A stretch of DNA of 64,000 nt from Pelagerythrobacter aerophilus (GTDB lineage: Bacteria; Pseudomonadota; Alphaproteobacteria; Sphingomonadales; Sphingomonadaceae): positions 418,501 through 482,500 of the forward strand of contig NZ_QXFK01000018.1 of the NCBI RefSeq assembly GCF_003581645.1. The letters run 5' to 3'. Under the pieces are notes generated by a model. It was given only the letters and a program-made list of their open reading frames with translations, was not told the origin of the DNA and ran no database searches. The position numbers and the translations under genes are program-made. Below, in pieces: positions 12,383-40,797 of this stretch (the stretch's first letter is position 1; each line of letters opens with the position of its first letter).

Positions 12383-12384
12383 CG

Positions 12385-20338: not shown

Positions 20339-20343
20339 CGCTC

Positions 20344-21938: not shown

Positions 21939-21951
21939 ATCCTTCTCCTGT

Positions 21952-23488: not shown

Positions 23489-24547
23489 TTATTGTCGCGG
23501 CGGCGCGACCGATGCCCGGCGGACGAGACTGGATAGAAAGAACGAGGGTTCGGCAGCAGCCTTGGTGCGGTCGCCGGGGCTTCCGACCAGCTTCAGAGCG
23601 GCCGAACGGGCCATCGGAATAATCGGCCAGCGAACCGTCGTGAGCGGCGGCCAGATATGCGCGGCGATCGCGGTGTCGTCGAAGCCGATGACCGAGAGAT
23701 TTTCGGGTACGGACAGGCCGCGCTGGTTGGCGGCGTGCACGACACCGGCGGCCATCTCGTCGTTCGAGGCAAAGATGGCGGTCGGGGGCGGTCCGAGATC
23801 CAGCAGCCGGTTGGCGGCTTCGATGCCCGATTCAAAGGTGTAGTTGCCTTCCGCTATGTAGTTTCTCGGCAGCTCGATGCCTGCCGCCTCGATCGCCTGT
23901 TCGAAGCCCGCGCGGCGCTCCGCGGCCGAGCGGAAGCCGCGCGGCCCCTCGATGAGGGCGATGAGGCGATGGCCTTGATCGACGAGATAGGTGGTGGCCT
24001 CCCGAACCGCTTCGCGATCGTTCGAGGCGACGAGATGCTCGGGATCGTCGAGTTGCGCCGAACCCATGCGTACGTAGCGGCAGCCGAGTTCGTCGCAGAG
24101 GTTCGCGAGCACATCGTTCTCCGAGATCGGCGGCAGCAGCAGCACGCCGAACAGGCGCTGGCGGTTGAGAAAGGCCCGCACGTCCTCGAGCATCAGCGGT
24201 GAGCGGCGGTCGACCGGGCGCACCACCAGTTCGAACTCGGTCCCCTGCAAGGCTTCGAGTATGCCCTGCTGAACGTTCAAGACCGTCTGCGCGTTCGGAT
24301 TGTCGTGGATGAGGCCAATCAGAAAGTTGCGGCGGAGCGCCAGGGCTCGTGCCTGTGGGTTGGGGACATAGCCGAGTTCCGCGATCACCTGCTCCACGCG
24401 CTCGCGCGTCTCGCTGTTGAGAAGCGTCGAGCGGTTGATGACGCGGCTCACCGTTTTCTTCGATACCCCGGCAAGGCGCGCCACATCGTTGATCGTCGGC
24501 TTGGCGGCGCGTTTCGCCGTCGACGATGCTTTATCCTGTTCCGCCAA
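23489..24547 (-). CDS. LacI-family transcriptional regulator of the pectin/uronate regulon
   Basis: It has 352 residues. The N-terminal HTH is TINDVARLAGVSKKTVSRVI, followed by the hinge helix region NPQARALALRR that inserts in the minor groove at a central CG. A periplasmic-binding-like effector domain fills the rest (FASNDEMAAGVVHAANQ, LSVIGFDDTAIA). The start is TTG, preceded by GAGAGGGA at 6 bp. The gene is the only LacI regulator in the window, lies in the middle of the uronate genes and shares an intergenic region with uxaA that carries operator site 4. I infer that it binds the six CACCGGT-type sites and responds to a KDG- or uronate-type effector, and may autoregulate. Confidence 0.9.
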   Translation of the reverse strand: MAEQDKASSTAKRAAKPTINDVARLAGVSKKTVSRVINRSTLLNSETRERVEQVIAELGYVPNPQARALALRRNFLIGLIHDNPNAQTVLNVQQGILEALQGTEFELVVRPVDRRSPLMLEDVRAFLNRQRLFGVLLLPPISENDVLANLCDELGCRYVRMGSAQLDDPEHLVASNDREAVREATTYLVDQGHRLIALIEGPRGFRSAAERRAGFEQAIEAAGIELPRNYIAEGNYTFESGIEAANRLLDLGPPPTAIFASNDEMAAGVVHAANQRGLSVPENLSVIGFDDTAIAAHIWPPLTTVRWPIIPMARSAALKLVGSPGDRTKAAAEPSFFLSSLVRRASVAPPRQ

Positions 24548-24655: not shown

Positions 24656-26164
24656 ATGCAAGCTCCATTCGTCCCTTCCGCAGACGTGCTCTCGCTGCTG
24701 CACCTCCATCCCCGCGACGACGTCGCAGTGGCTCTGCGGCCGATCGCGGCCGGAGAGGCGCTATCGGCGGGCGGGCGAAGCGTCGTCGCGGCGGAGCCGG
24801 TGCCTCATGGACACAAGATTGCGCTGACCAGCATCGCGGCGGGGACGGACGTGTACAAGTTCGGCTGGCCGATCGGGCGCACCACGATGGATATCGCGCC
24901 CGGCGCGCACGTCCATACCCATAATGTCGAAACCCGGCTCAAGGGCGTGCAAGGCTACGCATACGATCCGGCGGAGCACCAGCCGCTGCCGTCCGCCGAC
25001 GCCGAGTTCCTCGGGTATCGCCGGGCCGACGGCCGCGTGGGCACGCGCAACGAAATCTGGATCCTGCCCACGGTCGGCTGCGTCGGCCGTACGGCGGAAC
25101 GGATCGCCGGCATCGCCGCGGCGCGCCACGGGGGGGCAGTCGACGGCATCCACGCCTTCCCGCATCCGCACGGCTGCTCGCAGCTCGGCAGCGACCTCGA
25201 AAGCACCCGTGCCGTTCTTGCCGCGCTCGCCTGCCACCCCAACGCCGGCGGGGTGCTGCTGGTCGGGCTCGGGTGCGAATCGAATCAGCTGGACGATCTC
25301 GTTGCCGCCATACCGGAGGCATTGCGGAGCCGCGTTCGAACACTCCGGGCACAAGGCGTGGAGGACGAGGTCGAGCATGGTCTGGCGTTGATCGACGAAC
25401 TCGTCAGCCAGGCTTCGTGCGCAGAGCGGCACCCGGCGCCTCTCGGCGAGCTCGTCCTCGGCCTCAAATGTGGGGGATCGGACGGGTTCAGCGGTCTCAC
25501 AGCCAATCCGCTCGTCGGCCGCATGGCCGACTTGGTCGTCGGATCGGGCGGATCGGCAATCCTGACCGAAATCCCCGAAATCTTCGGGGCAGAGCACCTC
25601 TTGATGGCCCGGGCGCGCGGTACAGACGTGTTCGATCGCGTCGTAGCGCTCGTGAACGATTTCAAGTGCTACTTCCTCGAAAGCGGCCAACCAGTTTCCG
25701 AAAACCCCTCCCCCGGCAACCTCGCCGGCGGGATCACGACGCTGGAGGAGAAATCGCTCGGTGCGGTGCAGAAAGCCGGGCAGTCGCCGGTCGGCGACGT
25801 GCTCCGCTATGGCGAACGAGTGCGCCTGCGGGGGCTGACCCTGTTGGAAGCGCCGGGCAACGACGCGGTTTCTTCCACCGCGCTTGCGGCCGCGGGTGCG
25901 ACCCTGATCCTGTTCACCACCGGCCGCGGCACGCCGCTGGGCTTTCCGGCGCCGACGGTGAAGATCGCGTCGAACTCCGAGCTGGCGACGCGCAAGCCGC
26001 GATGGATCGACTTCGACGCCGGAGAGGTGCTGACAAGCGGCCCCGATACGGCTGCCGCGGCGCTGTTGAGCCGCATTCTCGCGCTCGCATCCGGCGAGCC
26101 GACTGCGTCCGAACGGAACGACGAACGCGAAATCGCGATCTGGAAACGCGGCGTGACCCTCTGA
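24656..26164 (+). CDS. uxaA: Altronate dehydratase
   Basis: Converts D-altronate to 2-keto-3-deoxygluconate in the cytoplasm. It has 502 residues, a full-length fusion: an N-terminal SAF-type domain (about residues 12-90, LHPRDDVAVAL to IAPGAHVHTHNV) and a C-terminal UxaA/GarD catalytic domain with FLGYRRADGRVGTRNEIW, HPHGCSQLGSD, GLGCESNQ, LKCGGSDGFSGLTANPLVG and ILTEIPEIFGAEHLL. The cysteines probably hold the metal. No Shine-Dalgarno sequence precedes ATG 24656, which abuts the operator; either the mRNA is nearly leaderless or translation begins at the in-frame GTG 24686. UxaA defines the branch used in this locus (altronate, not mannonate). Confidence 0.95.
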   Translation: MQAPFVPSADVLSLLHLHPRDDVAVALRPIAAGEALSAGGRSVVAAEPVPHGHKIALTSIAAGTDVYKFGWPIGRTTMDIAPGAHVHTHNVETRLKGVQGYAYDPAEHQPLPSADAEFLGYRRADGRVGTRNEIWILPTVGCVGRTAERIAGIAAARHGGAVDGIHAFPHPHGCSQLGSDLESTRAVLAALACHPNAGGVLLVGLGCESNQLDDLVAAIPEALRSRVRTLRAQGVEDEVEHGLALIDELVSQASCAERHPAPLGELVLGLKCGGSDGFSGLTANPLVGRMADLVVGSGGSAILTEIPEIFGAEHLLMARARGTDVFDRVVALVNDFKCYFLESGQPVSENPSPGNLAGGITTLEEKSLGAVQKAGQSPVGDVLRYGERVRLRGLTLLEAPGNDAVSSTALAAAGATLILFTTGRGTPLGFPAPTVKIASNSELATRKPRWIDFDAGEVLTSGPDTAAAALLSRILALASGEPTASERNDEREIAIWKRGVTL

Positions 26165-27643: not shown

Positions 27644-28924
27644 TCAGTTGAAATAGTTCGGCAGCGCCATCGAGAGCTCGGGAATATATGTGATCAGCAG
27701 CAATGCGAGGACGAGCGCACCATAGAAAGGCCAGATCGTCTTCACAGTCCGTTCGACCGGAATCTTGCCGATCGCGGAGCTCACGAACAGGACCGAGCCC
27801 ACGGGCGGAGTGACCAGCCCGATGCCGAGGTTGAGCATCAGGATGATTCCGAAATGCACCGGATCGATGCCCAGCGGCATCAGGATCGGCAGGAAGATGG
27901 GCGTCGTGATCACGATCAGCGGCGCCATGTCCATGAACGTGCCGAGCAGGAGCAGTATGACGTTGATGAGGAGGAGAATCAGGATCGGATTGTCGGTGAT
28001 GATACCGATCAGGTTCGCCAGCTCCGCAGGTACCTCGAGGATCGCCAGCGCGAACCCGAAGCCCGTGGCCGAAGCGATGATGAGAAGCACCATAGCGGTG
28101 GTCTTCACCGACTGGATGGCGGCCGCCATGAACTCCGCCAGTCCGAGCGTCCGATAGACCAGCGCGCCGACCAGAATGGTATAGATGACCGCGATCGCGG
28201 AGCTTTCCGTCGCGGTGAAGATGCCGCTCAGGATGCCGCCCATGATGATAATCGCCGTCAGCAAGCCCGGTAGCGCGTAAACCGCCGCGCGAAGGAAGGG
28301 GCGCCAGCCGGGAAAGATGCCGCGGGGATAGCCCCTCCGGCGCGCCACCACGTAAGTGGCGATCATCAGCAGAAGCCCGGTTAGAATGCCGGGAAAGACC
28401 CCCGCGAGGAACAGATCGCCGATGGAAACCCCGGTGCCCGACGCCGCCGCGTAGATGATCATGTTGTGCGAAGGCGGAATCAGCAGCCCGACGATCGCGC
28501 CGGTCGCGGTTACGTTCACCGCATAGTCGGCGTCGTACCCCTTCTCCTTCATCAGCGGGACGAGCGTGGAGCCCATGGCAGAGGCACAGGCGATGGCGGA
28601 GCCCGATACCGCACCGAACAGCATCGATGCACCGACATTCACCTGCCCCAACCCGCCGCGCGTGCGGCCGAACGTCGCTTCGGCCACCTGGACCAGCCGG
28701 GTCGCTATCCCGGCGCGGTACATGAGGTCGCCGGCGAAGATGAAGAACGGAATGGCCATCAGGCTGAACACGCTGATCCCCGCCGCCATTCGCTGGAACA
28801 CGACGACCAGGGGAAGGTCGATGGCAAGGAATGCCGCGATCGTTGCGCCGAGAAGAGCGAAGGCGACCGGCACGCCGATCAGCAGCAACACCACCAGCGT
28901 GAGGAAGAGGACTGCTAGCTCCAC
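27644..28924 (-). CDS. TRAP transporter large permease (DctM family)
   Basis: Inner-membrane ion-coupled permease of 426 residues with about 12 hydrophobic helices. Typical blocks are LLIGVPVAFALLGATIAAFL, MAIPFFIFAGDLMYRAG, LFGAVSGSAIACASAMGSTLVP, LIPPSHNMIIYAAASGTGVS and GLVTPPVGSVLFV near the C-terminus. It begins with GTG, overlapping the DctQ stop by 10 bp. With DctQ and the DctP-type receptor it makes a complete tripartite transporter, probably for uronates or short oligouronides given the upstream operator. Confidence 0.95.
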   Translation of the reverse strand: MELAVLFLTLVVLLLIGVPVAFALLGATIAAFLAIDLPLVVVFQRMAAGISVFSLMAIPFFIFAGDLMYRAGIATRLVQVAEATFGRTRGGLGQVNVGASMLFGAVSGSAIACASAMGSTLVPLMKEKGYDADYAVNVTATGAIVGLLIPPSHNMIIYAAASGTGVSIGDLFLAGVFPGILTGLLLMIATYVVARRRGYPRGIFPGWRPFLRAAVYALPGLLTAIIIMGGILSGIFTATESSAIAVIYTILVGALVYRTLGLAEFMAAAIQSVKTTAMVLLIIASATGFGFALAILEVPAELANLIGIITDNPILILLLINVILLLLGTFMDMAPLIVITTPIFLPILMPLGIDPVHFGIILMLNLGIGLVTPPVGSVLFVSSAIGKIPVERTVKTIWPFYGALVLALLLITYIPELSMALPNYFN

Positions 28925-29430
28925 TGGCCGTCCTCCACATCCGCGCTGTCTTCGCCCATGCCGTCCTCGAGGATCAGCTCCACCGCGAAGAAAGCCATCA
29001 AGGCACCCGACAACGGCAGCGGCAGGTAAGCGACCCCGCGTGGCAGGCCCAGCGTGGGGATCACGTGGCTCCAGGTCCGCGCCACCAGCTCACCGCCCCA
29101 GACGAGAAGAGCGATCCCGCTCAGTCCCACAATCACATGCGCGGCCAGGCGCAACAGACGGCGCCCCGCTGAGGGGAGTGCCGTCTGAACGGCTACGATG
29201 CGGATATGGAAGCCCTCGCGAACGCCGGCGGCCGCGGCGAAGAACACGTACCAGATCATGAGGATCAGCGCCAACTGCTCCGCCCATGAGGGGCTGTCGT
29301 TCAGCACGAAACGTCCGAACACCTGCCAGCCGATGACCGCCGTCATCACGATCAGCCCCGCCGCGCCGGCATGAAGCAGGGCGGCGCTGGCCGCTCGGTT
29401 CACCCGTTTCAATCCATCAAGCATTGCCAT
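28915..29430 (-). CDS. TRAP transporter small permease (DctQ family)
   Basis: It has 171 residues with four hydrophobic segments: LLHAGAAGLIVMTAVIGWQV, AEQLALILMIWYVFFAAAAG, LAAHVIVGLSGIALLVWGG and PLPLSGALMAFFAVELILED. EGFHIRI after TM2 is a common DctQ motif. It overlaps the DctP gene by 14 bp and DctM by 10 bp, fitting the 1:1:1 transporter operon. Confidence 0.92.
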   Translation of the reverse strand: MAMLDGLKRVNRAASAALLHAGAAGLIVMTAVIGWQVFGRFVLNDSPSWAEQLALILMIWYVFFAAAAGVREGFHIRIVAVQTALPSAGRRLLRLAAHVIVGLSGIALLVWGGELVARTWSHVIPTLGLPRGVAYLPLPLSGALMAFFAVELILEDGMGEDSADVEDGQWS

Positions 29431-30409
29431 CCCCCATCGCCAGCGCCGCGCGCATGATTTCCTTCTGCGCGTCGCTCGTGACGAAACTCTCCCACACCGG
29501 GTGCATTCTGCGGCGGAAGGGCTCGGAATCGACTTCGTTCACCCGGACGCCGTCCGCGACCAGCGCTTCCTGCGCCGCCGCCACGCGCGCATCCCACAAT
29601 CCGCGCATGTACGGCACCGACTCGCGCGCGCTCTCCATCACGATCTCGCGGTCCGCGGCGCTGAGGTTGTCCCAGCTCACCTTGGACATCAGCAGCACTT
29701 CGGGCGCCATGACGTGGCGCGTGAGACTGTAGTAAGGCGCGACTTCGTAGTGCCGCCCGCTCTCGTAGGAAGGCCAGTTGTTCTCCGCCCCGTCGATCAC
29801 CCCTTGAACCAGGCCCTGATAGACTTCGCCGAGATCCATCGGTGTCGCGTCGGCACCAAGGCCGCGGATCATCGCCACATAGAGGTCGGAATTCTGGACC
29901 CTGATCTTCATCCCGCGCATGTCGCTCGGGCGTTCGATCGGCCCCCTTGTGTTGTAGAAGGACCGCGCACCGGAATCGTAGAAGCAGAGGCCGATCATGT
30001 CGTGCGGCGCGAGCGAGGCGAGCACACGCTCGCCCGGCTTTCCGTCCAGTACCCGCCGCAAATGCGCTTCGCTGTCGAACAGGAAGGGCAGCGAGAAGAT
30101 CGTGGTGAGAGGCTCGATCGAATTGAGCGGCGCGAGATTGACCCGGTTGAAATCGAGCCCGCCGAAGCTCGTTATCTCCAGCGTATCGCGCTCCGCGCCG
30201 AGCTGGCCGCCGGGGAAGATCTTTACCCGCAGCCTGCCGCCGCTGCGCTGCTCCACCAGATCGCCGAAGTATCGAAAGGCCCGAACTGTGGGATACTCGG
30301 CAGGATGGGTATCGGTGCCGAACAGCGTCGACCGGCCGCCCCGACCGCACCCGGCCAGGCCCATCGCGAGCGCCCCGCCGACGAAGATGCGCCGGCTGAC
30401 TCTCAACAT
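29417..30409 (-). CDS. TRAP transporter substrate-binding protein (DctP family)
   Basis: Periplasmic binding receptor of 330 residues. The leader MLRVSRRIFVGGALAMGLAGC has a twin-arginine start and ends in a lipobox, so the protein may be membrane-anchored. Family blocks include FRYFGDLVEQRSGGRLRVKIFPGGQLG, FLFDSEAHLRRV, MRGMKIRVQNSDLY and the basic/acid ligand region QGVIDGAENNWPSY. I chose ATG 30409, which gives the cleanest signal; a GTG at 30436 adds nine residues. Operator site 6 lies about 106 bp upstream, placing the transporter under the uronate regulator. Confidence 0.92.
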   Translation of the reverse strand: MLRVSRRIFVGGALAMGLAGCGRGGRSTLFGTDTHPAEYPTVRAFRYFGDLVEQRSGGRLRVKIFPGGQLGAERDTLEITSFGGLDFNRVNLAPLNSIEPLTTIFSLPFLFDSEAHLRRVLDGKPGERVLASLAPHDMIGLCFYDSGARSFYNTRGPIERPSDMRGMKIRVQNSDLYVAMIRGLGADATPMDLGEVYQGLVQGVIDGAENNWPSYESGRHYEVAPYYSLTRHVMAPEVLLMSKVSWDNLSAADREIVMESARESVPYMRGLWDARVAAAQEALVADGVRVNEVDSEPFRRRMHPVWESFVTSDAQKEIMRAALAMGDGNA

Positions 30410-30514
30410 TGCGTTTCGCGGCTGGAAACCTTGCACGCGCCTGCGCCCACGACCTCACCTCTCCCAACTTTGCCGCATCTCGTGGCGACCAATTGGGTCA
30501 GGTTTTGCATATTA

Positions 30515-30613: not shown

Positions 30614-31795
30614 CTACCCGCCGCGGCCGGGACTTTCCGCGAGCGAAGTCCACTTGGCCTCTCCGGCGCTGTTCTCGATCATGGCCTCGACGAACGCCAT
30701 TGTCCGCAAGCCGTCATGAACACCGGGAAACCAGTCGGCTGCGCCGGGGGGCGGGGAACTCGCGGCGTCGGCGTGCAGGGCTCGGCCGAAGCTGCGGTAC
30801 AGATTGGCAAAGGCTTCGATATAGCCCTCGGGATGGCCCGCGGGAACGCGCAGACGTCCCATCGTCGACGCATCGAGGCCCGGGCCGCCCGCACGGACGA
30901 TCTCTGCCGGCCGATCGAGCCAGCGCAGCGTCAGCGTGTTCGGCTCCATCTGCGACCAGTCGAGGCCGCCTTTTTCGCCGTGGATACGCAGGCGGAGCCC
31001 GTTCTCATCACCCGCCGCAACCTGGCTCGCCTTGAGCACCCCGCGCGCACCGCCTTCGAAGCGCAGGAGCGCAGCCACGTCGTCGTCGAGACGGCGACCC
31101 GGCACATGGGCAGTCAGGTCCGCGCTCAGTTGCTCGACCTTCAGGCCGGAAACATGTTCGGCAAGCTGAAAGGCGTGCGTGCCGATGTCGCCGAGGCAGC
31201 CGCCCAGGCCAGCTCGCGCGGGATCGGTGCGCCACTCGGCCTGCTTGTTGCCTTCACGGTCGATCGGCTCGCTCAGCCAGCCTTGCGAGTATTCGACCTG
31301 CACCAGCCTGATCGCGCCGAAATCGCCCCGCGCCACGCGCACGCGCGCCTCCTCGATCAGCGGATAGCCGCTATAGGTGAAGGCCAGACCGTAGAGCTTG
31401 CCGCTGCGAGCAACCGCCTCCGCGATCGCCCGCGCTTCGGCGAGGTTCAGCGCCATCGGCTTTTCGGACATGACGTGAAAACCGGCGTCGAGCGCCGCGA
31501 TCGCCATGGGGGCGTGCAGGTGATTCGGCGTTACGATCGCCAGCGCTTCCATCCGCTGATCCTCCGGCACCGCCCCCTCGGCCGCAAGCAACGCATCGAG
31601 CGTGGCGTAGGCGCGCGCGGGGTCGAGCCCGAGCGCCTCGGCGCTCCGCCGGTTGCGTTCCGCGTCGCTACTGAATGCGCCGCAGACCAAGGCAAACTCG
31701 CCGTCGAGCGCCGCCGCCATCCGGTGCACCGCACCGATAAAGGCACCCTCACCACCGCCGGCCATGCCGTAACGAATTTTTGGCTGACCACTCAT
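30614..31795 (-). CDS. Gfo/Idh/MocA-family NAD(P)-dependent oxidoreductase
   Basis: It has 393 residues and is cytoplasmic, with no signal. The N-terminal dinucleotide motif is [16 protein letters not shown], a segment [18 protein letters not shown] leads to the conserved lysine-proline SEKPMAL, and the C-terminal half has [20 protein letters not shown] with the family histidine. It is divergent from the cytochrome c-to-FG-GAP operon across a 98-bp gap. Enzymes of this family oxidise or reduce hydroxyl or keto groups at various positions of sugars, so reduction of an imported keto-sugar is a reasonable role. Start 31795 is chosen with a GGGGA site upstream; the longer frame has no support. 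Confidence 0.88.
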
Positions 31796-31842
31796 CCCAT
31801 TCCCCACTTTCTTAATTCCGAAAAATGATTGCATAATTCGAT

Positions 31843-31856
31843 TGTGAACGGTTACA
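31843..31856. promoter_or_regulatory. Possible operator between the Gfo/Idh gene and the cytochrome c operon
   Basis: TGTGAACGGTTACA is an imperfect palindrome (10 of 14 positions symmetric) with a CG centre, typical of LacI-family sites but different from the six CACCGGT sites. It lies 48 bp upstream of the oxidoreductase and 37 bp upstream of the cytochrome gene. No matching regulator gene is adjacent. Confidence 0.45.
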
Positions 31857-31893
31857 TGTCTGGACCGGCTGTTTCCAGACGGGGAGAGGATAA

Positions 31894-32286
31894 ATGAAGT
31901 TTCTTGTCGGGCTACCTCCGGTGGCCGCGATACTGGCCGCTTTGGCGCTGGCGCCATCGTCTCAGGTGCGCGCGGATCCAGCGCCCAATGCCGGTGCTCA
32001 GGCATTCGCCGCCTGCCGCGCCTGCCACACGCTGAATGCCGGCGGCAAAAGCGGCGTGGGCCCCAACCTTCATGGTCTGTTCGGCCGCCAGGCGGGCTCC
32101 GCCCCCGGATTCAACTATAGCCCTGCGCTCAAGGCCTCGAAAATCCGCTGGGATGAAAAGACGCTCAACGAGTATCTGGCCGCGCCGACCAAGAAGGTTC
32201 CGGGCACGCGGATGTTCGTCAAGGTTGCCGATCCCGCTCGCCGTGCTGCACTGATCGATTATCTCAAGACCGAAACGTCCAAGTGA
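31894..32286 (+). CDS. Periplasmic c-type cytochrome (class I)
   Basis: It has 130 residues with a cleavable signal ending near VRADPA. There is one haem-binding motif CRACH around residue 48, GVGPNLHGLFGR, and the distal methionine in PGTRMFVKV. The size and motifs match soluble c2/c552-type carriers. As first gene of the glycoside-oxidation operon it probably accepts electrons from the GMC flavoprotein encoded later and passes them to the terminal oxidase. The sugar isomerase-like gene follows after 20 bp. Confidence 0.93.
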   Translation: MKFLVGLPPVAAILAALALAPSSQVRADPAPNAGAQAFAACRACHTLNAGGKSGVGPNLHGLFGRQAGSAPGFNYSPALKASKIRWDEKTLNEYLAAPTKKVPGTRMFVKVADPARRAALIDYLKTETSK

Positions 32287-32306
32287 TTCGGAAAGGGGGC
32301 GGCGGC

Positions 32307-33350
32307 ATGAAGGGCCCGGCAGTTTTCCTCGCGCAGTTCATGAGCGACTCCGCGCCGTTCGACACGCTGCCCTCCGCCGCCCGGTGGATGGCCGAGGCCG
32401 GCTATATAGGAATTCAGGTTCCCACCACGGACAGCCGCTGCATGGATCTGCGCCTGGCGGCCGAGAGCCAGGACTACTGCGACGAACTCGCCGGCACCTG
32501 CCGCGAGGCAGGAGTCGAGATCACCGAACTTTCGACCCACCTGCAAGGCCAGCTGGTCGCGGTTCACCCGGCCTACGATGTGGCATTCGACGGCTTTGCG
32601 CCCGAGGCGGTGCGAGGGAAGCCGGCGGAACGGCAAGCATGGGCGGTCGAACAGCTCCATCTCGCGGCCAAGGCGAGCCGGCGGCTGGGCCTCAAGGCGC
32701 ATGCGACGTTCTCGGGCGCGCTGGCTTGGCCCTATCTCTATCCTTGGCCGCAACGCCCCGCCGGACTGGTCGAGGAGGCGTTCGCCGAGCTCGCTAAGCG
32801 CTGGCGTCCGATCCTCGATGCGTTCGAGGAACAGGGGGTCGACCTCGCCTACGAGATTCATCCCGGCGAGGATCTGCACGACGGGGTGACGTTCGAGCGT
32901 TTCCTGGCGGCGGTGGACAACCACCCGCGCGCCAACATTCTCTACGATCCCAGCCACTACGTGCTGCAGGCGCTCGACTATCTCGAGTTCATCGACATTT
33001 ATCACGAACGTATCCGGATGTTCCACGTCAAGGACGCGGAGTTCAATCCGAACGGACGCTCGGGCGCCTACGGCGGCTACCAGGACTGGGTGAACCGGCC
33101 GGGCCGTTTCCGCTCGCTGGGCGACGGACAGGTGGATTTCTCGGGCATTTTTTCGAAGCTGACTCAGTACGGCTATGACGGTTGGGCGGTGCTGGAGTGG
33201 GAGTGCTGCCTGAAGCACCCTGAGGACGGCGCCCGCGAAGGTGCGCCGTTCATCGCCGCGCACATGATCCGCCAGCCCGAACGCGCGTTCGACGATTTCG
33301 CGGCGGGCAGCGATCCCGCGCTCAATCGCGCACTGCTGGGACTGGATTGA
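32307..33350 (+). CDS. Sugar phosphate isomerase/epimerase-like TIM barrel (cytoplasmic)
   Basis: It has 347 residues of the xylose-isomerase-like / AP-endonuclease-2 superfamily, with no export signal. Metal-ligand type residues are in LAYEIHPGEDLHDG (glutamate and histidine), ILYDPSHYVLQ, RMFHVKDAEFN and VLEWECCLK. Start 32307 is chosen because GAAAGGGGG lies 7 bp upstream. It is the first of three such barrels in this operon and the only one lacking a leader, so it may work on imported keto-sugars together with the divergent Gfo/Idh enzyme. Confidence 0.87.
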   Translation: MKGPAVFLAQFMSDSAPFDTLPSAARWMAEAGYIGIQVPTTDSRCMDLRLAAESQDYCDELAGTCREAGVEITELSTHLQGQLVAVHPAYDVAFDGFAPEAVRGKPAERQAWAVEQLHLAAKASRRLGLKAHATFSGALAWPYLYPWPQRPAGLVEEAFAELAKRWRPILDAFEEQGVDLAYEIHPGEDLHDGVTFERFLAAVDNHPRANILYDPSHYVLQALDYLEFIDIYHERIRMFHVKDAEFNPNGRSGAYGGYQDWVNRPGRFRSLGDGQVDFSGIFSKLTQYGYDGWAVLEWECCLKHPEDGAREGAPFIAAHMIRQPERAFDDFAAGSDPALNRALLGLD

Positions 33351-33398
33351 CGACCCGCAAGAGCGGGCAAGAACGAGACGATTGGGAGGGAGTGCCGG

Positions 33399-34700
33399 AT
33401 GGCCGCGACATTGAATAAGGGAAGGCTGTTCTGGCTGGGCGTCCTCGCCCTGTTCACGGCCGCATCGAGCCTCGCGATCCGCGGTGCGATCGCCAGCGGG
33501 CTCAAGGCCGAGTGGATCGATCCGATCGCACCACTGCAGGCGGGCGAACTGCTTGCCGCCGCGCTGGGCGCGGCGTTCCTCAGCTTTGCGATCACCCTGT
33601 TCGTCGCCAGCGCCTTCCTCGATCAGATCGGCATGAAGGGGTGTCTGCTGGGTGCCGGCTTGTGCTTCCTCGTCGGCCCGCTGCTAATCATCACTGCGGG
33701 GGACGTTGCGACCGGCATGACGGTCTATACCCTCGTCTGGCTCGGCATGCTCCTCAGCGGCATCGGCTGGGGGCTGACAGAGGCGGCGATCAACCCGCTG
33801 ACGGCGCAGCTCTATCCTGAAGACACGACCCACCGGCTCAACGTGCTGCACGCCTGGTTTCCCGGCGGCATCATCGTCGGCGGGCTGGCCGGCTTCTTCC
33901 TCTCCGCGACCTTGCCGTGGCAGGGCATCATGGCGCTGGTGATGATCCCCGCGGCAGCAACGGTCGTGATCGCCGCGACCACGACCTTCCCGCCTCCGCT
34001 GCGCAGCGAAAGCGGCGTCACGTTCGGCGAGATGGTGAGCGAGGTGTTCCGCCGCCCCAGCTTCTTCATCTGGTTCGGGGCGATGTTCCTGACCGCCGCG
34101 TCGGAGCTGGCCCCCGGTCAATGGATCGACGTCGCCCTGTCGAACCGTGTCGGCATGCGCGGCATTCTGCTGCTGGTCTACGTCAACGCGCTGATGTTCG
34201 TGTTCCGCCATTTCGCTGGCCGGCTGGCCAACAAGATCTCCAATCCGGGGCTCCTGTGGGTGTCCAGCCTGCTCGCCGCGATCGGGCTGTTCATGCTGAG
34301 CCAGGCGCAGTCGCCGGCCGCCGCGATCCTTGCCTCGACCGTCTGGGGGCTCGGCGTGTGCGTAATGTGGCCGACGATGCTCGCTTCAGTCGCCGAACGC
34401 TATCCGCGCGGCGGCTCGTGGGCTCTCGGGCTGGTCGGCTCCGCCGGCGCTCTAGCCAGCTTCTTCGTCCTGCCCCGGCTGGGCGCCATGTTCGACGAGG
34501 CCAAGATCGAATTCGCCGGCGGCCCCGAAGCGTTCGCCCGGCTGACCGGCGCGGCGAAACTGGCGGTCGAGGACGCCGCGGCATCGGTCTCGTTCCAGCG
34601 ACTGGCGATCCTGCCGGTGATCCTCCTGGCGGTGTTCGGCTTCATTTGGCTGCGCGAACGCGGCAAGTCGCGCGCCGTGCTCGCGGGCGAGGCAGCATGA
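33399..34700 (+). CDS. MFS transporter, FucP-like sugar permease
   Basis: Inner-membrane permease of 433 residues with about 12 helices (for example LFWLGVLALFTAASSLAIRG, LGAAFLSFAITLFVASAFLD, GGIIVGGLAGFFLSATLPW). The segment GIGWGLTEAAINPLTAQLYPE, with NVLHAWFPGG, resembles FucP/glucose-galactose MFS proteins. It overlaps the next gene by 4 bp (ATGA). In this operon it most likely imports the monosaccharide or keto-sugar released in the periplasm. Confidence 0.88.
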   Translation: MAATLNKGRLFWLGVLALFTAASSLAIRGAIASGLKAEWIDPIAPLQAGELLAAALGAAFLSFAITLFVASAFLDQIGMKGCLLGAGLCFLVGPLLIITAGDVATGMTVYTLVWLGMLLSGIGWGLTEAAINPLTAQLYPEDTTHRLNVLHAWFPGGIIVGGLAGFFLSATLPWQGIMALVMIPAAATVVIAATTTFPPPLRSESGVTFGEMVSEVFRRPSFFIWFGAMFLTAASELAPGQWIDVALSNRVGMRGILLLVYVNALMFVFRHFAGRLANKISNPGLLWVSSLLAAIGLFMLSQAQSPAAAILASTVWGLGVCVMWPTMLASVAERYPRGGSWALGLVGSAGALASFFVLPRLGAMFDEAKIEFAGGPEAFARLTGAAKLAVEDAAASVSFQRLAILPVILLAVFGFIWLRERGKSRAVLAGEAA

Positions 34701-35608
34701 GCCTGTCGCGCCGCACGGTGCTGGTCGGTAGTGCAGCCACGGCCGCAGCCGCGGCAACGATGGGCAGTGGCGCCTCGGCGCAGAATGCCGCCCGGTTCTC
34801 GCTCGGCTACGCGCCGCACGAAGGGAGCTTCAAGAGCCGCGGCAACCGGCTCGAGCAGATCGCCTATGCCGCCGACATGGGCTTCACCGCCTGGGAGGAT
34901 AACGAGGCCGCCGGCCGCTCGGTCGCCGAGCAAACCGCCATGGCGCGCGCGCTGCAGCAGCGCGGCATGACCATGGGCGTGTTCGTCGCGAGCATGCCGC
35001 GATGGAGCGATTTCCGGCCGATGCTCGGCGCAGACGACGATTCCGACCGGCAGGCCTTCCTCGCCGACATCCGCGCTTCGATCGACGTCGCCAAGCGCCT
35101 CAATGCCAAGTGGATGACGGTCGTCCCCGGCTTCCTCGATCGCAAGCTGCCGGTCGAGATCCAGACCGGCCGGATCGTCGACACCATGCGCCGCGCGGCC
35201 GAGATCGTCGAGCCGCACGGCCTCGTCATGGTGATGGAGCCGCTCAACACGCTGGTGAACCACCCGGGGGTGTTCCTGCGGACTATTCCGCAGGGCTTCG
35301 CGGTCGCCAGGGGTGTGAACAGCCCGGCGGTGAAAGTCCTTGCCGATCTCTACCACGAGCAGATCCAGGCCGGGAACCTGATCAACACGATGGCGGCCTG
35401 CTGGGACGAGATCGGCTATATCCAGTTCGGCGACAATCCCGGGCGCGACGAGCCCGGCACCGGCGAGATCAACTACCGCAACGTCGTCCGCTGGCTGCGC
35501 GCCAAGAAGTTCACCGGCGTGATCGGCATGGAACACGGCAATTCGATCGAAGGCCGCGCGGGCGAGGAGCGGCTGGTCGCCGCCTATCGCGCGATCGACG
35601 CGGCATGA
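34697..35608 (+). CDS. Hydroxypyruvate-isomerase-like TIM barrel, Tat-exported
   Basis: It has 303 residues with a twin-arginine leader (MSLSRRTVLVGSAATAAAAA, then GASAQ). The mature part follows the hydroxypyruvate isomerase pattern: MVMEPLNTLVNHPGVFLRT, VKVLADLYHEQIQAGNL, IQFGDNPGRDEPGTGEINYR and IGMEHGN, so the glutamate, aspartate and histidine metal ligands are kept. Classical Hyi enzymes are cytoplasmic; export implies action on a periplasmic sugar, possibly a keto-glycoside. The exact reaction is unknown. The ATG overlaps the permease stop by 4 bp. Confidence 0.86.
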   Translation: MSLSRRTVLVGSAATAAAAATMGSGASAQNAARFSLGYAPHEGSFKSRGNRLEQIAYAADMGFTAWEDNEAAGRSVAEQTAMARALQQRGMTMGVFVASMPRWSDFRPMLGADDDSDRQAFLADIRASIDVAKRLNAKWMTVVPGFLDRKLPVEIQTGRIVDTMRRAAEIVEPHGLVMVMEPLNTLVNHPGVFLRTIPQGFAVARGVNSPAVKVLADLYHEQIQAGNLINTMAACWDEIGYIQFGDNPGRDEPGTGEINYRNVVRWLRAKKFTGVIGMEHGNSIEGRAGEERLVAAYRAIDAA

Positions 35609-35619
35609 GGAGGAAACGA

Positions 35620-36447
35620 GTGAGGCATTTCAATCTGGCGACCGCGATTGCAGTCGCGGCATTGGCAGGAGGCGCTGCCATGGCGCAGGACAAACCAGGT
35701 TTCCGCGATACGCCGACGCTGCCCGACGGCAAGTGGAAGGTCCACGACGCCGACCGGCCCCATCCCGAGGTCGTGACGCCCGGTGCCACCCCCGGCGCGG
35801 CGCCGTCCGACGCAGTGGTGCTGTTCGACGGCACCTCGCTCGACGCGTGGGAGCCGACGGGCCAGCCCTGGCACCTCGAAAACGGCGTAGTGACTGTTCC
35901 CGCGCGCGAAGAGGGCGAAGAGGCGAGCACGCTCGTCAGCAAGCAGAGCTTCGGCGACGTGCAGCTCCACCTCGAGTTCCGCTCCCCCAATCCGCCCGAG
36001 AAGAGCTCGCAGGACCGGGGCAACAGCGGCGTGTGGTTCATGGAACGCTACGAGGTCCAGATCCTCGACGGCTACGACAACCCGACCTACGCCGACGGCA
36101 CAGTGGGCGCGATCTACGGATGGAAGCCGCCGCTGGTGAACGCCTCGCGCAAGCCGGGCGAATGGCAGAGCTACGACATCGTCTTCGAACGGCCACGCTT
36201 CGCCGCCGACGGTTCGGTCGAGCGGCCCGCCTACGTCACCGTGTTCCTGAACGGCGTGCTGGTGCAGAACCGCCAGCCGTTCCTCGGCTCGACCATTTGG
36301 CGCGACGTCGGGAAGTACGAAGCGCACGCCGATGCCGCGCCGATCCAGCTTCAGGATCACGATTCGCCGGTATCGTTCCGCAATATCTGGGTCCGGCCGC
36401 TGTCCGAAGCGGCGCTGAGCCATGACGCGATGGGAGACCACCAGTGA
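35620..36447 (+). CDS. DUF1080 / 3-keto-disaccharide hydrolase family protein
   Basis: It has 275 residues with a Sec signal (FNLATAIAVAALAGGAAMAQ). The beta-sandwich family formerly called DUF1080 (PF06439) shows VVLFDGTSLDAWE, HLENGVVTVPAREEGEEAS, SFGDVQLHLEFRSP, the key block GNSGVWFMERYEVQILDG, and a closing PIQLQDHDSPVSFRNIW. GTG 35620 is the likely start because GAGGAGGAAA lies 4 bp upstream; an ATG at 35605, overlapping the previous stop, is possible. Family members hydrolyse or eliminate 3-keto-glycosides, which fits the flavin dehydrogenase encoded three genes later. Confidence 0.9.
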   Translation: MRHFNLATAIAVAALAGGAAMAQDKPGFRDTPTLPDGKWKVHDADRPHPEVVTPGATPGAAPSDAVVLFDGTSLDAWEPTGQPWHLENGVVTVPAREEGEEASTLVSKQSFGDVQLHLEFRSPNPPEKSSQDRGNSGVWFMERYEVQILDGYDNPTYADGTVGAIYGWKPPLVNASRKPGEWQSYDIVFERPRFAADGSVERPAYVTVFLNGVLVQNRQPFLGSTIWRDVGKYEAHADAAPIQLQDHDSPVSFRNIWVRPLSEAALSHDAMGDHQ

Positions 36448-37001
36448 TCGATCGCAGAGACGCCCTCGCGGGCATCGTCGCCATGTTCGGAGCCACGCTG
36501 TTCGCGCCGATCGCGCGCGCGGCCTCGGTCCAGGTCGCAGTGATCGATACCGGCCCGCCGAGCAGCGCGGTCTTCACCGCGGGACAGCGCGCGCTGGTGA
36601 GTGCGCTGAGCGAGCGGGTGATCCCCACCACCGATACGCCCGGCGCGATTGCGGCGGAAGTACCGCAGTTCATCGAGAAGCTGCTCGCCGACTGGGCCCG
36701 GCCCGAGGACAAGCAGCCGATCCTCGCCGGGCTCGAGGCGATCGAGGCGCGCAGCCTGCGCGACTACAAGATCGCTGCCGCCGAGGCGACGCCCGAGCAG
36801 CAGGACGCCCTGCTGACGCTGGCGATGAACGATCAGCTACCCGGCGGCGCGGACTTCTTCGACAAGTTCCGCCAGCTCGTCATCACCGGCTACTACACCT
36901 CCGAAATCGGCATCACGCAGGAACGCGAGTACCTCCCGGTTCCGGGCAAGTACGACGGCGCCTACCCTTATGCCAACGTCACCAAGGTCTTTTCGTCATG
37001 A
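36444..37001 (+). CDS. Gluconate 2-dehydrogenase subunit 3-like small subunit
   Basis: It has 185 residues. The leader IDRRDALAGIVAMFGATLFAPIARA contains paired arginines. The rest resembles the small subunit of membrane-linked GMC sugar dehydrogenases: ALVSALSERVIPTTDTPGAIAAEVPQF, FFDKFRQLVITGYYTSEIG and a terminal VPGKYDGAYPY. In such complexes the small subunit carries the export signal for the flavoprotein, which has none of its own. It starts with GTG overlapping the DUF1080 stop by 4 bp and overlaps the next gene by 4 bp. Confidence 0.88.
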   Translation: MIDRRDALAGIVAMFGATLFAPIARAASVQVAVIDTGPPSSAVFTAGQRALVSALSERVIPTTDTPGAIAAEVPQFIEKLLADWARPEDKQPILAGLEAIEARSLRDYKIAAAEATPEQQDALLTLAMNDQLPGGADFFDKFRQLVITGYYTSEIGITQEREYLPVPGKYDGAYPYANVTKVFSS

Positions 37002-37837
37002 GGGCGAGCAGACGTCAGATGCTCGCTGGCGGCGCAGCGCTCGCAGCCGCCTTCGCGGCCGGCCCGCTCGCCGCCCGGGGCGGCCCGGTGGGACGGATCG
37101 GCCTCCAGCTCTACACCGTGCGCGAGCTGTTCGCGCCCGATCCGATCGGCACGCTCGAGAAGGTCGCGGCGATCGGCTACCGCGAAGTCGAATACGGCGG
37201 CGGCGGGTACGAGGCGATGGATCATGCCGCGCTGCGCAAGGCGATGGACCGGCTCGGTCTCACCGCCCCGTCGATCCACGTCGGCTACGATGCGCTCGCC
37301 GGCAGATTCGACGAGACGGTGGCCATGGCCCGGACGCTCGGCGCCGATACGATCGTCGTCCCGTGGATGGAGGAGAAGTTCCGCGCAGCTGCCGCCTGGC
37401 GCGGCGCGGTGGCCGACTTCAACCGCTTCGCCGAACGGCTCAAGGCGGTGAACCTCGGCTTCGCCTATCACAACCACGACTTCGAGTTCACGCACAGGGA
37501 CGGCGACCGGACACTGTTCGACGTCCTGATCGCCGAGGGCGATCCCGAACTCCTCGGCATCGAGCTCGACCTATTCTGGGCAGTCAAGGCCGGACAGGAC
37601 CCCAAGGCGCTGATCGACCGCCTCCCGGGCCGGATCTACGCCTATCACGTGAAGGACATGACCGCCGAGGGTGCCATGACCAGCGTCGGCAAGGGCGTGA
37701 TCGATTTCGCCGACGTCTTCACGCTGAACGAGCGGGCCGGGGTCAAGCATCTCTACGTCGAGAACGACCAGTCGCCGGCGCCCTATCTGCCCGACATCAC
37801 CACCAGTTTCACCACGCTGAGCCGCCTCGGCGCCTGA
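36998..37837 (+). CDS. Sugar phosphate isomerase/epimerase-like TIM barrel, exported
   Basis: It has 279 residues with a leader MRASRRQMLAGGAALAAAFA containing RR, a Tat-type signal. The AP-endonuclease-2 fold is indicated by RIGLQLYTVREL, IGYREVEYGG, FAYHNHDFEF, GIELDLFWAVKAGQDP, AYHVKDM and LYVENDQS. It is the third TIM barrel of the operon and the second with an export signal. The gene sits between the small and large dehydrogenase subunits, which ties it to their substrate. Epimerase, isomerase or lyase action on a keto-sugar are all possible. Confidence 0.86.
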   Translation: MRASRRQMLAGGAALAAAFAAGPLAARGGPVGRIGLQLYTVRELFAPDPIGTLEKVAAIGYREVEYGGGGYEAMDHAALRKAMDRLGLTAPSIHVGYDALAGRFDETVAMARTLGADTIVVPWMEEKFRAAAAWRGAVADFNRFAERLKAVNLGFAYHNHDFEFTHRDGDRTLFDVLIAEGDPELLGIELDLFWAVKAGQDPKALIDRLPGRIYAYHVKDMTAEGAMTSVGKGVIDFADVFTLNERAGVKHLYVENDQSPAPYLPDITTSFTTLSRLGA

Positions 37838-37862
37838 ACGGATTACGCAAGGAACATTTCTC

Positions 37863-39545
37863 ATGGCAGCGACGGACCAATACGACGCAATCGTCATCGG
37901 CTCGGGCGTCAGCGGCGGCTGGGCCGCCAAGGAGCTCACCGAGAAAGGGCTGCGCGTGCTGATGCTCGACCGCGGCGTGATGGTCGAGCACGGCGCGGAC
38001 TACACTTACGACGGCGCGCCGCCCTACGAGATCCCGGCCCGCAACATGATGCCCAAACCGCTGGTCAAGAGCGACTACTTCATCGCCACCCACGGCTATG
38101 TCTCGCCCAGCAACCAGAAGTTCTACAACAACGACCGGCTCAACCCCTACGCCTACGACGAGGGTGAGAAGTTCTACTGGATCCGCCCCGGCGCCGTCGG
38201 CGGCAAGTCGCTGATCTGGGGCCGTTGGTCGTTCCGCTGGAGCCCCGAGGATTTCGAGGCCAACAAGCGCGAGAACATCGGCGGCGAGTGGCCGATCGGC
38301 TACGACGATCTCGCGCCCTGGTACGACTACGTCGAGAAGTACGTCGGCGTCTCGGGCTCCCGCGAGAACCTGCCGCAACTGCCCGACAGCCAGTTCCAGC
38401 CGCCGATCCCGATGAACGTCGCCGAAAAGTGGGTCAAGGAACGGCTCGAGACGACCTCGCCGGGACGCAAGCTGATCCACACGCGCCTCTCCAACATGAC
38501 CGAAGACAAGCCGGAACAGGGCCGCAGCAAGTGCCAGTTCCGTGCCCAGTGCGGCCGTGGCTGCTCGTTCGGCGCCTATTTCTCGACCCAGGCGGTGACC
38601 CTCCCCGCCGCGCGCGCGACCGGGCGGCTAACGCTGCGCTCGGATGCCGTGGTCAGCAATCTCGAATACGATCCCGCGACCAAGCGCGTCACCGGCGTGC
38701 GCGTGGTCGATGCCAATACGAAGCAGGCGGAGATCATTCCTGCGCGGCTGGTCTTCCTCTGCGCCTCGGCGATGGCCTCGACGCAGATCCTGATGAACTC
38801 GCGGATCCCTGGCACCGGCCGCAGCCATTTCGACAACAGCGGAACGCTGGGCCGCTATGTCATGGACCACATCTTCCGGGTCGACATCTCCGGCGATATC
38901 GCGGGCATGACCGACTACATCGAATACGGCCGGCGGCCGGGCGGGGTCTACATCCCGCGCTTCCGCAACGTCGGCGGCGAGGAGGGAGTCGGCTTCCTGC
39001 GCGGCTACGGCTATCAGGGCAGCGCCTGGCGCAGCCCGCTGCCGCCCGAGGGCTTCGGCGCTTCGATGAAGCACGGCATGCGCGGCTACGGCCCGTGGAA
39101 GTTCGGCATGGGCGCGTTCGGCGAGTGCCTGCCTTACGAGGACAACCACGTCTCGCTCCACCCCGACGAGGTCGACCGCTTCGGCATTCCCCTGATGCGC
39201 TTCAACGTGACCTTCCGCGACAACGAGCTCAAGATGATGAGCGATGCGCGAACCGAGGGCGAAAGGATGCTGCGCGCCGCCGGCCTGACCAACGTGACGA
39301 GCAATCGCCGGGAACACGTTCCGGGCGACGCGATCCACGAGATGGGCGGCGCGCGCATGGGCTCCGATCCGCGCCAGTCGGTCCTCAACAAGTGGAGCCA
39401 GGCCCACGATGCAGCCAACCTCTTCGTGACCGACGGGGCGCAGATGGCCTCCATCTCCTGCGTGAACCCGTCGCTGACCTTCATGGCATTCACCGCCCGC
39501 GCGGCGGACTATGCGGTCAAACAGTTGAAGGTCGGCGCGATCTAG
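37863..39545 (+). CDS. GMC-family FAD oxidoreductase, probable glycoside/sugar dehydrogenase large subunit
   Basis: It has 560 residues. The N-terminal FAD motif is AIVIGSGVSGGWAAKELTEKG, followed by RPGAVGGKSLIWGRWSFRW, a cysteine-containing block CQFRAQCGRGCSFGAYF that may be a cluster or structural site, and the C-terminal PGDAIHEMGGARMGSDP with the active-site His, then CVNPSLTFMAFTARAADY. No signal peptide is present, so export must ride on the small subunit encoded two genes earlier. With that subunit and cytochrome c this resembles glucoside 3-dehydrogenase or gluconate 2-dehydrogenase systems. The DUF1080 gene favours oxidation at C3. A terminal GTG-free ATG with AAGGA upstream is used. 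Confidence 0.92.
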   Translation: MAATDQYDAIVIGSGVSGGWAAKELTEKGLRVLMLDRGVMVEHGADYTYDGAPPYEIPARNMMPKPLVKSDYFIATHGYVSPSNQKFYNNDRLNPYAYDEGEKFYWIRPGAVGGKSLIWGRWSFRWSPEDFEANKRENIGGEWPIGYDDLAPWYDYVEKYVGVSGSRENLPQLPDSQFQPPIPMNVAEKWVKERLETTSPGRKLIHTRLSNMTEDKPEQGRSKCQFRAQCGRGCSFGAYFSTQAVTLPAARATGRLTLRSDAVVSNLEYDPATKRVTGVRVVDANTKQAEIIPARLVFLCASAMASTQILMNSRIPGTGRSHFDNSGTLGRYVMDHIFRVDISGDIAGMTDYIEYGRRPGGVYIPRFRNVGGEEGVGFLRGYGYQGSAWRSPLPPEGFGASMKHGMRGYGPWKFGMGAFGECLPYEDNHVSLHPDEVDRFGIPLMRFNVTFRDNELKMMSDARTEGERMLRAAGLTNVTSNRREHVPGDAIHEMGGARMGSDPRQSVLNKWSQAHDAANLFVTDGAQMASISCVNPSLTFMAFTARAADYAVKQLKVGAI

Positions 39546-39552
39546 GGCTGCC

Positions 39553-40797
39553 ATGGGTGCTCGGGCAAACAGCTGCTTTCGTCCGCTGCTCGGTACCGCC
39601 GTGCTTCTGGTTGCCGGAGCGTGCCAGGCACAGTCCCCCACGGACAGCCCGCCGACGGTCCTGCGCGATGTGACCGCCACCCACCTGCCGCAGGCGCCCG
39701 ACCTGCATGCGCTCGACATCGCTCTCGCCGATTTCGACGGCGACGGCGATCTCGATGCGGCGCTCGCGGTGGAGGGGGACGTCAACCGGCTCTACCTTAA
39801 CGACGGGCACGGCCGCTTCGCCTGGCGCAAGGGCGCATTCGGACAGCGCCCGCACGACACCGAGCATGTGCGCGCGGCCGATTTCGACCGCGACGGCCAC
39901 GTGGACGTCGTCTTCGTCGCCGAGGATGACCGGACGCATCAGTTGTTCCTCGGCCGCGGCGACGGGCGTTTTGTCGACGCGAGCGACCGGCTGCCGGCGA
40001 CGAGCGAAGGCAACGCCCTGGCAGTCGGCGACGTTAACGGTGACGGGCTGTCCGACATCGTCATCGGCAATTCGGGTGGGAAGGAAGGCGGCCGGAACTT
40101 CCTGTGGTTGAACGATCCCGACCGTCCAGGCTGGTTCGAGGATCGCACCGCAACGCACTTCCCGGCAGTCGGCAACCGGGCGCAAGGCGTCGCGCTCGTA
40201 GATCTCGACGGTGACGGCGATCTGGACATGGCGGTTGCGACCGAGACGCCGCCGACGCGGCTGCTCGTCAACGATGGCACCGGCCGCTTCGCCGAGGCGT
40301 CGGACAGGCTCGACCAGGTCACCCCGCTGGAGACGCGCGAGGTTCACGCGTTCGATGCCAACGGCGATGGACAGCCGGATCTCCTGCTGCTCAATCTCAC
40401 CAGCAATGCCGGCGAATGGGAGAAGGACCCGCAGGCGCGGCTGCTGATGCAGAACGAATCCGGCCGCTTCGTCGACGAAACGGCAACGCGCCTCCCCTCT
40501 AATCGCTTCTCGAGCTGGGGCGGCGCCGTCATGGACTTCACCGGCGACGGCCATTCCGACCTGATCGTCGGCGCCATCGAGGTCCCCGGCTTCGAACCCC
40601 TCCAGGTCCGCGCCTATGCCAACGACGGTCAGGGCCGGTTCCACGACGCCACGGTCGCCACCATCCCGAGCACGACCATCGGCCGAAGCTGGAGCATGGC
40701 CGTAGGCGACGTGAACGGCGACGGCGCGGACGACCTATTCATCGGTGGCTGGGGCACACAGGCCCGCCTGCTACTCGGCCGCCCTGTGTCGGAGTAG
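39553..40797 (+). CDS. FG-GAP/VCBS-repeat lipoprotein
   Basis: It has 414 residues with a lipoprotein-like leader (LLGTAVLLVAGACQAQ, lipobox VAGAC). Seven calcium-binding DxDGDGxxD-type motifs occur along the protein at about residues 60, 115, 163, 218, 273, 335 and 395: DFDGDGDLD, DFDRDGHVD, DVNGDGLSD, DLDGDGDLD, DANGDGQPD, DFTGDGHSD and DVNGDGADD. This predicts a seven-bladed integrin-alpha-like beta-propeller. It is 7 bp after the GMC gene and closes the operon. Such propellers bind polysaccharides or proteins or act as glycan lyases, so it may be the substrate-capturing component of the oxidation system. Confidence 0.87.
   Translation: MGARANSCFRPLLGTAVLLVAGACQAQSPTDSPPTVLRDVTATHLPQAPDLHALDIALADFDGDGDLDAALAVEGDVNRLYLNDGHGRFAWRKGAFGQRPHDTEHVRAADFDRDGHVDVVFVAEDDRTHQLFLGRGDGRFVDASDRLPATSEGNALAVGDVNGDGLSDIVIGNSGGKEGGRNFLWLNDPDRPGWFEDRTATHFPAVGNRAQGVALVDLDGDGDLDMAVATETPPTRLLVNDGTGRFAEASDRLDQVTPLETREVHAFDANGDGQPDLLLLNLTSNAGEWEKDPQARLLMQNESGRFVDETATRLPSNRFSSWGGAVMDFTGDGHSDLIVGAIEVPGFEPLQVRAYANDGQGRFHDATVATIPSTTIGRSWSMAVGDVNGDGADDLFIGGWGTQARLLLGRPVSE

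Follow-up and report, generated by a model that had tools for sequence, protein, structure and literature searches.

We describe a ten-gene cluster at positions 30614-40797 of a 64,000-nucleotide stretch of Pelagerythrobacter aerophilus DNA (contig NZ_QXFK01000018.1; the whole stretch is hereafter termed the window). The cluster represents a variant, conserved in sphingomonads, of the lacABC/GlycDH 3-keto-glycoside pathway, and includes one exported TIM barrel that is so far unexplained. Its gene content, gene order and conservation, its active-site residues and the named relatives of its products point to a pathway split between two compartments, in which a glycoside would be oxidized at C3, cleaved by elimination, hydrated and finally reduced. 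We regard this scheme as quite probable. The cluster joins two published part-lists, from Caulobacter and Agrobacterium; new here is a second barrel with a twin-arginine translocation (Tat)-type leader, related to hydroxypyruvate isomerase (Hyi), which is co-conserved in sphingomonads and has no place in the described pathways. All ten open reading frames of the divergent cluster outlined in the original prediction, which was made from the DNA alone, were recovered with their Pfam assignments:

30614-31834, minus strand: Gfo/Idh/MocA oxidoreductase (PF01408/PF22725; an alternative start at 31795 is possible)
31894-32286, plus strand: small monohaem cytochrome c (PF00034; single CxxCH at residue 41; Sec-type leader)
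32283-33350, plus strand: cytoplasmic TIM barrel, xylose-isomerase-like, putative 2-hydroxy-3-keto-glucal hydratase (match to 8ro4)
33399-34700, plus strand: major facilitator superfamily (MFS) permease (PF07690)
34697-35608, plus strand: Tat-type TIM barrel of the Hyi type (PF01261; 3ngf and 1k77 nearest)
35605-36447, plus strand: secreted DUF1080 protein (PF06439, E 2.6e-41)
36444-37001, plus strand: small subunit with an RR leader (PF13618, E 8.5e-34)
36998-37837, plus strand: Tat-type TIM barrel, proposed 3-keto-O-glycoside beta-eliminase of the AtOGE type (8bvk, 8tct/8tcd/8tcs)
37863-39545, plus strand: GMC flavoprotein, proposed glycoside 3-dehydrogenase of the LacA/GlycDH type (PF00732/PF05199)
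39553-40797, plus strand: FG-GAP repeat protein, possible lipoprotein (PF13517, six stretches)

Nine of these genes lie compactly on the plus strand (31894-40797), and the Gfo/Idh gene is divergent from them. Five adjacent gene pairs in the run overlap by 4 bases and the remaining gaps measure 48, 25 and 7 bases; the run therefore reads as one transcription unit. Leaders were assigned by eye from the protein sequences. RR-type leaders were seen on the Hyi-type barrel, the small subunit and the AtOGE-type barrel, Sec-type leaders on cytochrome c and the DUF1080 protein, and none was visible on the hydratase barrel, the Gfo protein or the GMC protein. The predicted division into two Tat-type barrels (34697-35608 and 36998-37837) and one cytoplasmic barrel (32283-33350) is supported. 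Among the cluster proteins the Pfam TAT model recognizes only the Hyi-type barrel, at 20 bits, slightly below its cut-off of 22.7. Cytochrome c is the third part of dehydrogenase systems of the LacABC/GlycDH type. The arrangement typical of such systems is found here, with the GMC protein, the PF13618 small subunit and cytochrome c encoded in one unit, and so is their typical neighbourhood, with a DUF1080 protein, a reductase, barrels and a transporter encoded beside the dehydrogenase.

The same set recurs in other genomes. Named genomes were scanned with a profile of DUF1080, and the best 80 loci were kept. Among these, DUF1080 and GMC genes occur together in 38, together with the small subunit and the OGE-type barrel in 35, and with the Hyi-type barrel as well in 32; 28 of these 32 five-gene loci also carry Gfo, cytochrome c and the hydratase. 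All nine genes (the ten without FG-GAP) are present in 15 of the 80, every time in the order and orientation of the window, and the arrangement is therefore not due to chance. Sphingopyxis italica DSM 25229 (L069), a culturable strain, is one carrier of the nine genes. The run of DUF1080, small-subunit, barrel and GMC genes, for which the original prediction had proposed a synteny search, is thus a recurrent one. Thirty of the 32 five-gene loci (L052-L071, L073-L080, L086 and L109) are titled as sphingomonads, except for two metagenome-assembled genomes (MAGs; L063 and L065) that lack such a title and are alike in sequence. The other two, from Paracoccus laeviglucosivorans (L117) and a Gemmatimonadetes MAG (L118), have different gene orders and weaker matches. 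DUF1080 stands without GMC in the retrieved stretch, several of these stretches being short, in 42 of the 80 loci; DUF1080 alone is therefore not diagnostic. Within the order, 54 of 246 genomes (own genome included) encode a relative of the GMC protein at E 1e-60 or lower. Twenty stretches were hand-picked from GMC matches in genomes of the order: eight hold the Hyi-type barrel, DUF1080, the small subunit, the OGE-type barrel and GMC, and four have all nine genes in window order. Within the class, DUF1080 genes like that of the window are rare: at E 1e-30 they were found in 4 of 337 sampled genomes, own genome included. The window genome holds a single DUF1080 gene. An annotated plasmid of Sphingomonas parapaucimobilis has the nine genes too, with a LacI regulator after them. 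At one locus (L040), a second GMC gene (34%) and a second Hyi-like barrel (34%) adjoin a rearranged copy of the cluster in which the OGE-type barrel has no match.

We propose the following sequence of reactions. In the periplasm, the flavoenzyme formed by GMC and the small subunit would oxidize the sugar of the presumed glycoside substrate at C3, passing electrons through flavin adenine dinucleotide, an iron-sulfur cluster and cytochrome c, the proposed electron acceptor, to the respiratory chain. The Tat-exported AtOGE-type barrel, and probably also DUF1080, would then beta-eliminate the 3-keto-glycoside to the aglycone and 2-hydroxy-3-keto-glucal, which DUF1080 may also hydrate. The MFS permease would take the product, a keto-sugar or the keto-glucal, into the cell, where the hydratase barrel would add water to give the 3-keto-sugar and the Gfo/Idh enzyme would reduce this to the free sugar. 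Chemistry and compartments of this kind had been proposed from the DNA, and are backed by named solved relatives and active-site residues, more weakly so for DUF1080.

The elimination step is assigned to the barrel at 36998-37837, by its sequence a candidate 3-keto-O-glycoside beta-eliminase. Its best single-sequence match is 8bvk (97 bits), and against a nine-row profile of the barrel 8tct, 8bvk, 8tcd and 8tcs score about equally. The related TIM barrels 8tcd, 8tcs and 8tct presumably belong with the Bacteroides/Alistipes 3-keto-glucal pathway. The structure 8bvk is the Agrobacterium O-glycoside beta-eliminase AtOGE. In the report on that enzyme, His132, Asp163, His189 and Glu233 are named along with His134, which is catalytic, and with His66, Glu39 and Glu161 as alternative ligands of the metal (PMC10628242). 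All eight of these metal-site and catalytic residues are kept in the window barrel (His132 as H158, His134 as H160, Asp163 as D191, His189 as H217, Glu233 as E255, His66 as H94, Glu39 as E65 and Glu161 as E189). Seven of the eight are invariant across nine aligned rows, and E189 is replaced by Gln in one row.

The two cytoplasmic steps are assigned to the hydratase barrel and the Gfo protein. The barrel matches the solved 2-hydroxy-3-keto-glucal hydratase 8ro4 over residues 9-354 of 355 (E 2.8e-179, 599 bits); we presume 8ro4 to be AtHYD. The top solved relative of the Gfo protein is 3v5n (361 bits), titled just 'Oxidoreductase', and its proposed role as a cytoplasmic 3-keto-sugar reductase follows the analogy with the Agrobacterium operon.

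The DUF1080 protein, proposed to be a periplasmic 3-keto-glycoside eliminase/hydratase or hydrolase, matches PF06439 (3-keto-disaccharide hydrolase) at 142 bits, against a cut-off of 26.8. Its nearest structure by sequence is 4qhz (189 bits), which has no assigned function; the characterized 8rr2 and 9fbe are reached from the sequence just at E 0.037 and 0.29. A fold search with the DUF1080 model, a weak one (mean pLDDT, the predicted local distance difference test, 61.9), likewise has 4qhz on top, with 8v31, 3osd, 9fbe, 8rr2 and 8tda among further matches; the matches outside DUF1080 are generic beta-sandwiches. In a variant of the same pathway, which shares the other steps, DUF1080 would be the main cleaver, a true 3-keto-disaccharide hydrolase, the AtOGE-type barrel would serve special substrates such as aryl glucosides, and free 3-keto-sugar, not keto-glucal, would be imported. 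This variant draws on Caulobacter, where a DUF1080 protein is interpreted as a 3'-ketolactose hydrolase and its mutant is strongly defective on lactose (PMC9007349), and on the 32 of 80 loci in which DUF1080 accompanies the remaining four genes of the periplasmic part. Hydrolysis alone would, however, leave the cytoplasmic keto-glucal hydratase idle, yet this hydratase accompanies the set in at least 28 of the 80 loci, and the PDB titles of DUF1080 structures name an eliminase/hydratase (8rr2, 9fbe) or a keto-glucal hydratase (8v31, 8tda). We judge the hydrolase variant to be rather improbable.

For the oxidation step, the closest solved relative of the GMC protein is the fructose dehydrogenase large subunit (129 bits). 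Of the four cysteines in the motif of fructose dehydrogenase, three are kept (C224, C230 and C234), which we assume to suffice for the iron-sulfur cluster of GMC dehydrogenases of this type. Together with H492 and N535 they are identical in all 70 aligned loci; these were the loci, out of 119 searched, whose GMC gene matched at E 1e-60, and some genomes are counted twice among them. The small subunit, the sole PF13618 match in the genome, would serve to bring the GMC subunit into the periplasm, and we infer that the pair oxidizes glycosides at C3. That it is instead a respiratory dehydrogenase of the ordinary fructose or gluconate type, acting on free sugars or sugar acids, with neighbours that process a keto-aldose and not a glycoside, as the Pfam name of the small subunit (gluconate 2-dehydrogenase subunit 3) and the nearest solved GMC relatives (fructose and glucose dehydrogenases) might suggest, is very unlikely, given that the co-conserved AtOGE-type eliminase, keto-glucal hydratase and DUF1080 would act on C3-oxidized glycosides or their products and that a similar gene mix is found in Caulobacteraceae, the family of the lactose 3-dehydrogenase organism.

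The second exported barrel is closest to 3ngf and 1k77 by both sequence and fold (model mean pLDDT 78.8), and YcjR (6wn6, titled 3-keto-D-glucoside 4-epimerase) first appears at rank 11 in its fold list. Residues E181, D217, Q243 and E279, which we take to be metal ligands, are matched by identical residues in 3ngf and 1k77, and the RR of the leader is invariant in nine of nine aligned rows. An identification as hydroxypyruvate isomerase was rejected: the protein scores 125.7 bits with TIGR03234, far below the NCBIfam cut-off of 353.45, and is therefore named Hyi-type, not Hyi. The two Tat-type barrels are also not duplicates of one another, as BLASTP finds no meaningful similarity between them. 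The most likely role of the Hyi-type barrel is that of a keto-sugar epimerase or isomerase. More tentatively, it could be a new periplasmic enzyme of this kind, acting for example at C4 or between the 2-keto and 3-keto forms of the oxidized glycoside, and could so let one dehydrogenase-eliminase pair serve several sugar configurations. If true, this would mark out in sphingomonads a variant of the 3-keto-glycoside pathway in which cleavage is periplasmic and repair cytoplasmic. The cluster points to one co-conserved exported barrel without an assigned reaction.

The combination of genes had been held to be undescribed. This claim does not survive comparison with two published systems, which together hold nearly all parts: the Agrobacterium GlycDH-OGE-HYD-Gfo operon (PMC10628242) and the Caulobacter lacABC-DUF1080 cluster (PMC9007349). 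Genes important for lactose utilization in Caulobacter are lacABC, one for DUF1080 and those for a neighbouring transporter, two epimerases and a reductase (PMC9007349, Price 2022); two DUF1080 genes lie near lacABC there, compared with the one in the window genome. According to the authors, it is not known what becomes of 3-ketogalactose, and for the two epimerases and the reductase they offer suggestions as to their roles (PMC9007349). In the Agrobacterium operon, GlycDH, AtOGE, AtHYD and Gfo carry out oxidation, elimination, hydration and reduction; GlycDH oxidizes glycosides at C3, AtOGE yields 2-hydroxy-3-keto-glucal and the hydration by AtHYD is termed preliminary (PMC10628242, Bitter 2023). 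Common to this operon and the window are a flavin glycoside 3-dehydrogenase with a TAT-pathway partner, an AtOGE-type eliminase, a putative hydratase and a Gfo reductase. The window adds the MFS permease, cytochrome c, DUF1080, the exported Hyi-type barrel and the Tat-type leader on the eliminase; the words DUF1080 and periplasm each occur 0 times in the main text of that report (PMC10628242). The Bacteroides/Alistipes 3-keto-glucal pathways (PDB 8tda and 8v31; BT2157 is 3osd) have the DUF1080 fold in common with the window. Their glycoside 3-dehydrogenase, presumably a Gfo/Idh enzyme, belongs to the family named BT_2158 in NCBIfam, whereas the one proposed for the window is a GMC flavoenzyme. 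In the open-licence literature we found no account of this gene set in sphingomonads.

Related genomes link the two part-lists. Caulobacteraceae were sampled as the family of Asticcacaulis benevestitus (119 genomes), and 19 of these have a DUF1080 match at E 1e-20. Eight of the 19 loci hold DUF1080, the OGE-type barrel, Gfo, the hydratase, GMC and the small subunit, seven of them with cytochrome c in addition; the gene order differs from that of the window and the OGE-type barrels are just 29-33% identical. Two further loci (L161 and L162) have DUF1080, the small subunit, GMC, cytochrome c, the hydratase, Gfo and a 30% identical MFS permease without the OGE-type barrel, and one (L179) has DUF1080, the small subunit, GMC and cytochrome c. 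The other eight, of which two lie on short contigs, hold DUF1080 alone or with a few weak matches. None of the 19 loci yielded the Hyi-type barrel; the window-type MFS permease was found in the two already named and in none of the eight six-gene loci. Because of homology, and because the window cluster combines both part-lists, the two epimerases of the Caulobacter lac cluster are likely an AtOGE-type eliminase and a keto-glucal hydratase, and its reductase is likely a Gfo reductase, as co-location in related genomes also suggests. With this assignment, what becomes of the keto half of lactose can be put to the test.

Several observations weigh against the proposed pathway. The Hyi-type barrel has no place in it, the OGE-type barrel is just distantly similar to AtOGE in the single-sequence comparison, and two possible hydratases in two compartments would be partly redundant. 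The structure nearest to DUF1080 is functionally unassigned, its characterized relatives lie at E 0.037 or above and its model is weak; in addition, none of the DUF1080 genes of Pedobacter showed a lactose phenotype (PMC9007349). The best solved GMC relatives act on free fructose or glucose, so that the case for C3 oxidation of glycosides comes from gene context. The NCBIfam family nearest to the Gfo protein is levoglucosan dehydrogenase, an oxidizing enzyme, at 113.5 bits and far below the cut-off of 650; reduction as the direction of the Gfo reaction is therefore a tentative proposal, drawn from the Agrobacterium operon. Finally, the statement in the original prediction that no glycoside hydrolase is present holds within 30614-40797 and fails beyond it, where there are a GH43 gene at 6233-7873 and four GH3 matches elsewhere in the genome. 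Conventional hydrolysis is therefore also available to the host, and the cluster need not be its main glycoside route.

The hydratase and Gfo genes also occur without the periplasmic part. Hydratase matches at E 1e-60 were found in 310 plasmid records (including 54 from Pantoea and 58 from Phaeobacter), and gene neighbourhoods were inspected for four of them. The Gfo gene adjoins the hydratase gene on one Rhizobium (L133) and one Azospirillum (L135) plasmid, beside sugar ABC importers. On a Croceicoccus plasmid, the hydratase and Gfo lie beside GMC and the small subunit, with a GH3 gene present and no DUF1080 gene listed. The occurrence of the pair without the periplasmic part is consistent with a cytoplasmic repair module able to combine with different front ends.

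The FG-GAP protein (39553-40797), which has a possible but imperfect lipobox, had been counted as a member of the cluster. It adjoins the set, yet a full-length match downstream of GMC is found in just 2 of the 80 loci (L052 and L053), and we rejected it as a working part. A third match (L105) is 26% identical and on the opposite strand, and none was found in the 20 stretches of the order.

The TRAP transporter upstream of the cluster was considered as an importer and rejected, with no match in the 20 stretches of the order or the 80 genome loci (E 1e-6, 35% coverage). It adjoins a pectin/uronate utilization set at 2196-30436 of the window, which comprises the GH43 gene and the following:

3682-5247: pectate lyase-like protein
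7963-10776: TonB receptor
12265-13506: ThuA-cupin protein
13503-15086: carboxylesterase
15083-17110: 675-residue protein with a xylose-isomerase-like barrel
17850-19277: sugar transporter
19331-20581: PfkB kinase
21096-22106: KduI/IolB
21952-23388: UxaC
23489-24547: LacI regulator
24656-26164: altronate/galactarate dehydratase
27644-30436: TRAP transporter

The ThuA family represented in this set is known from keto-sugar pathways.

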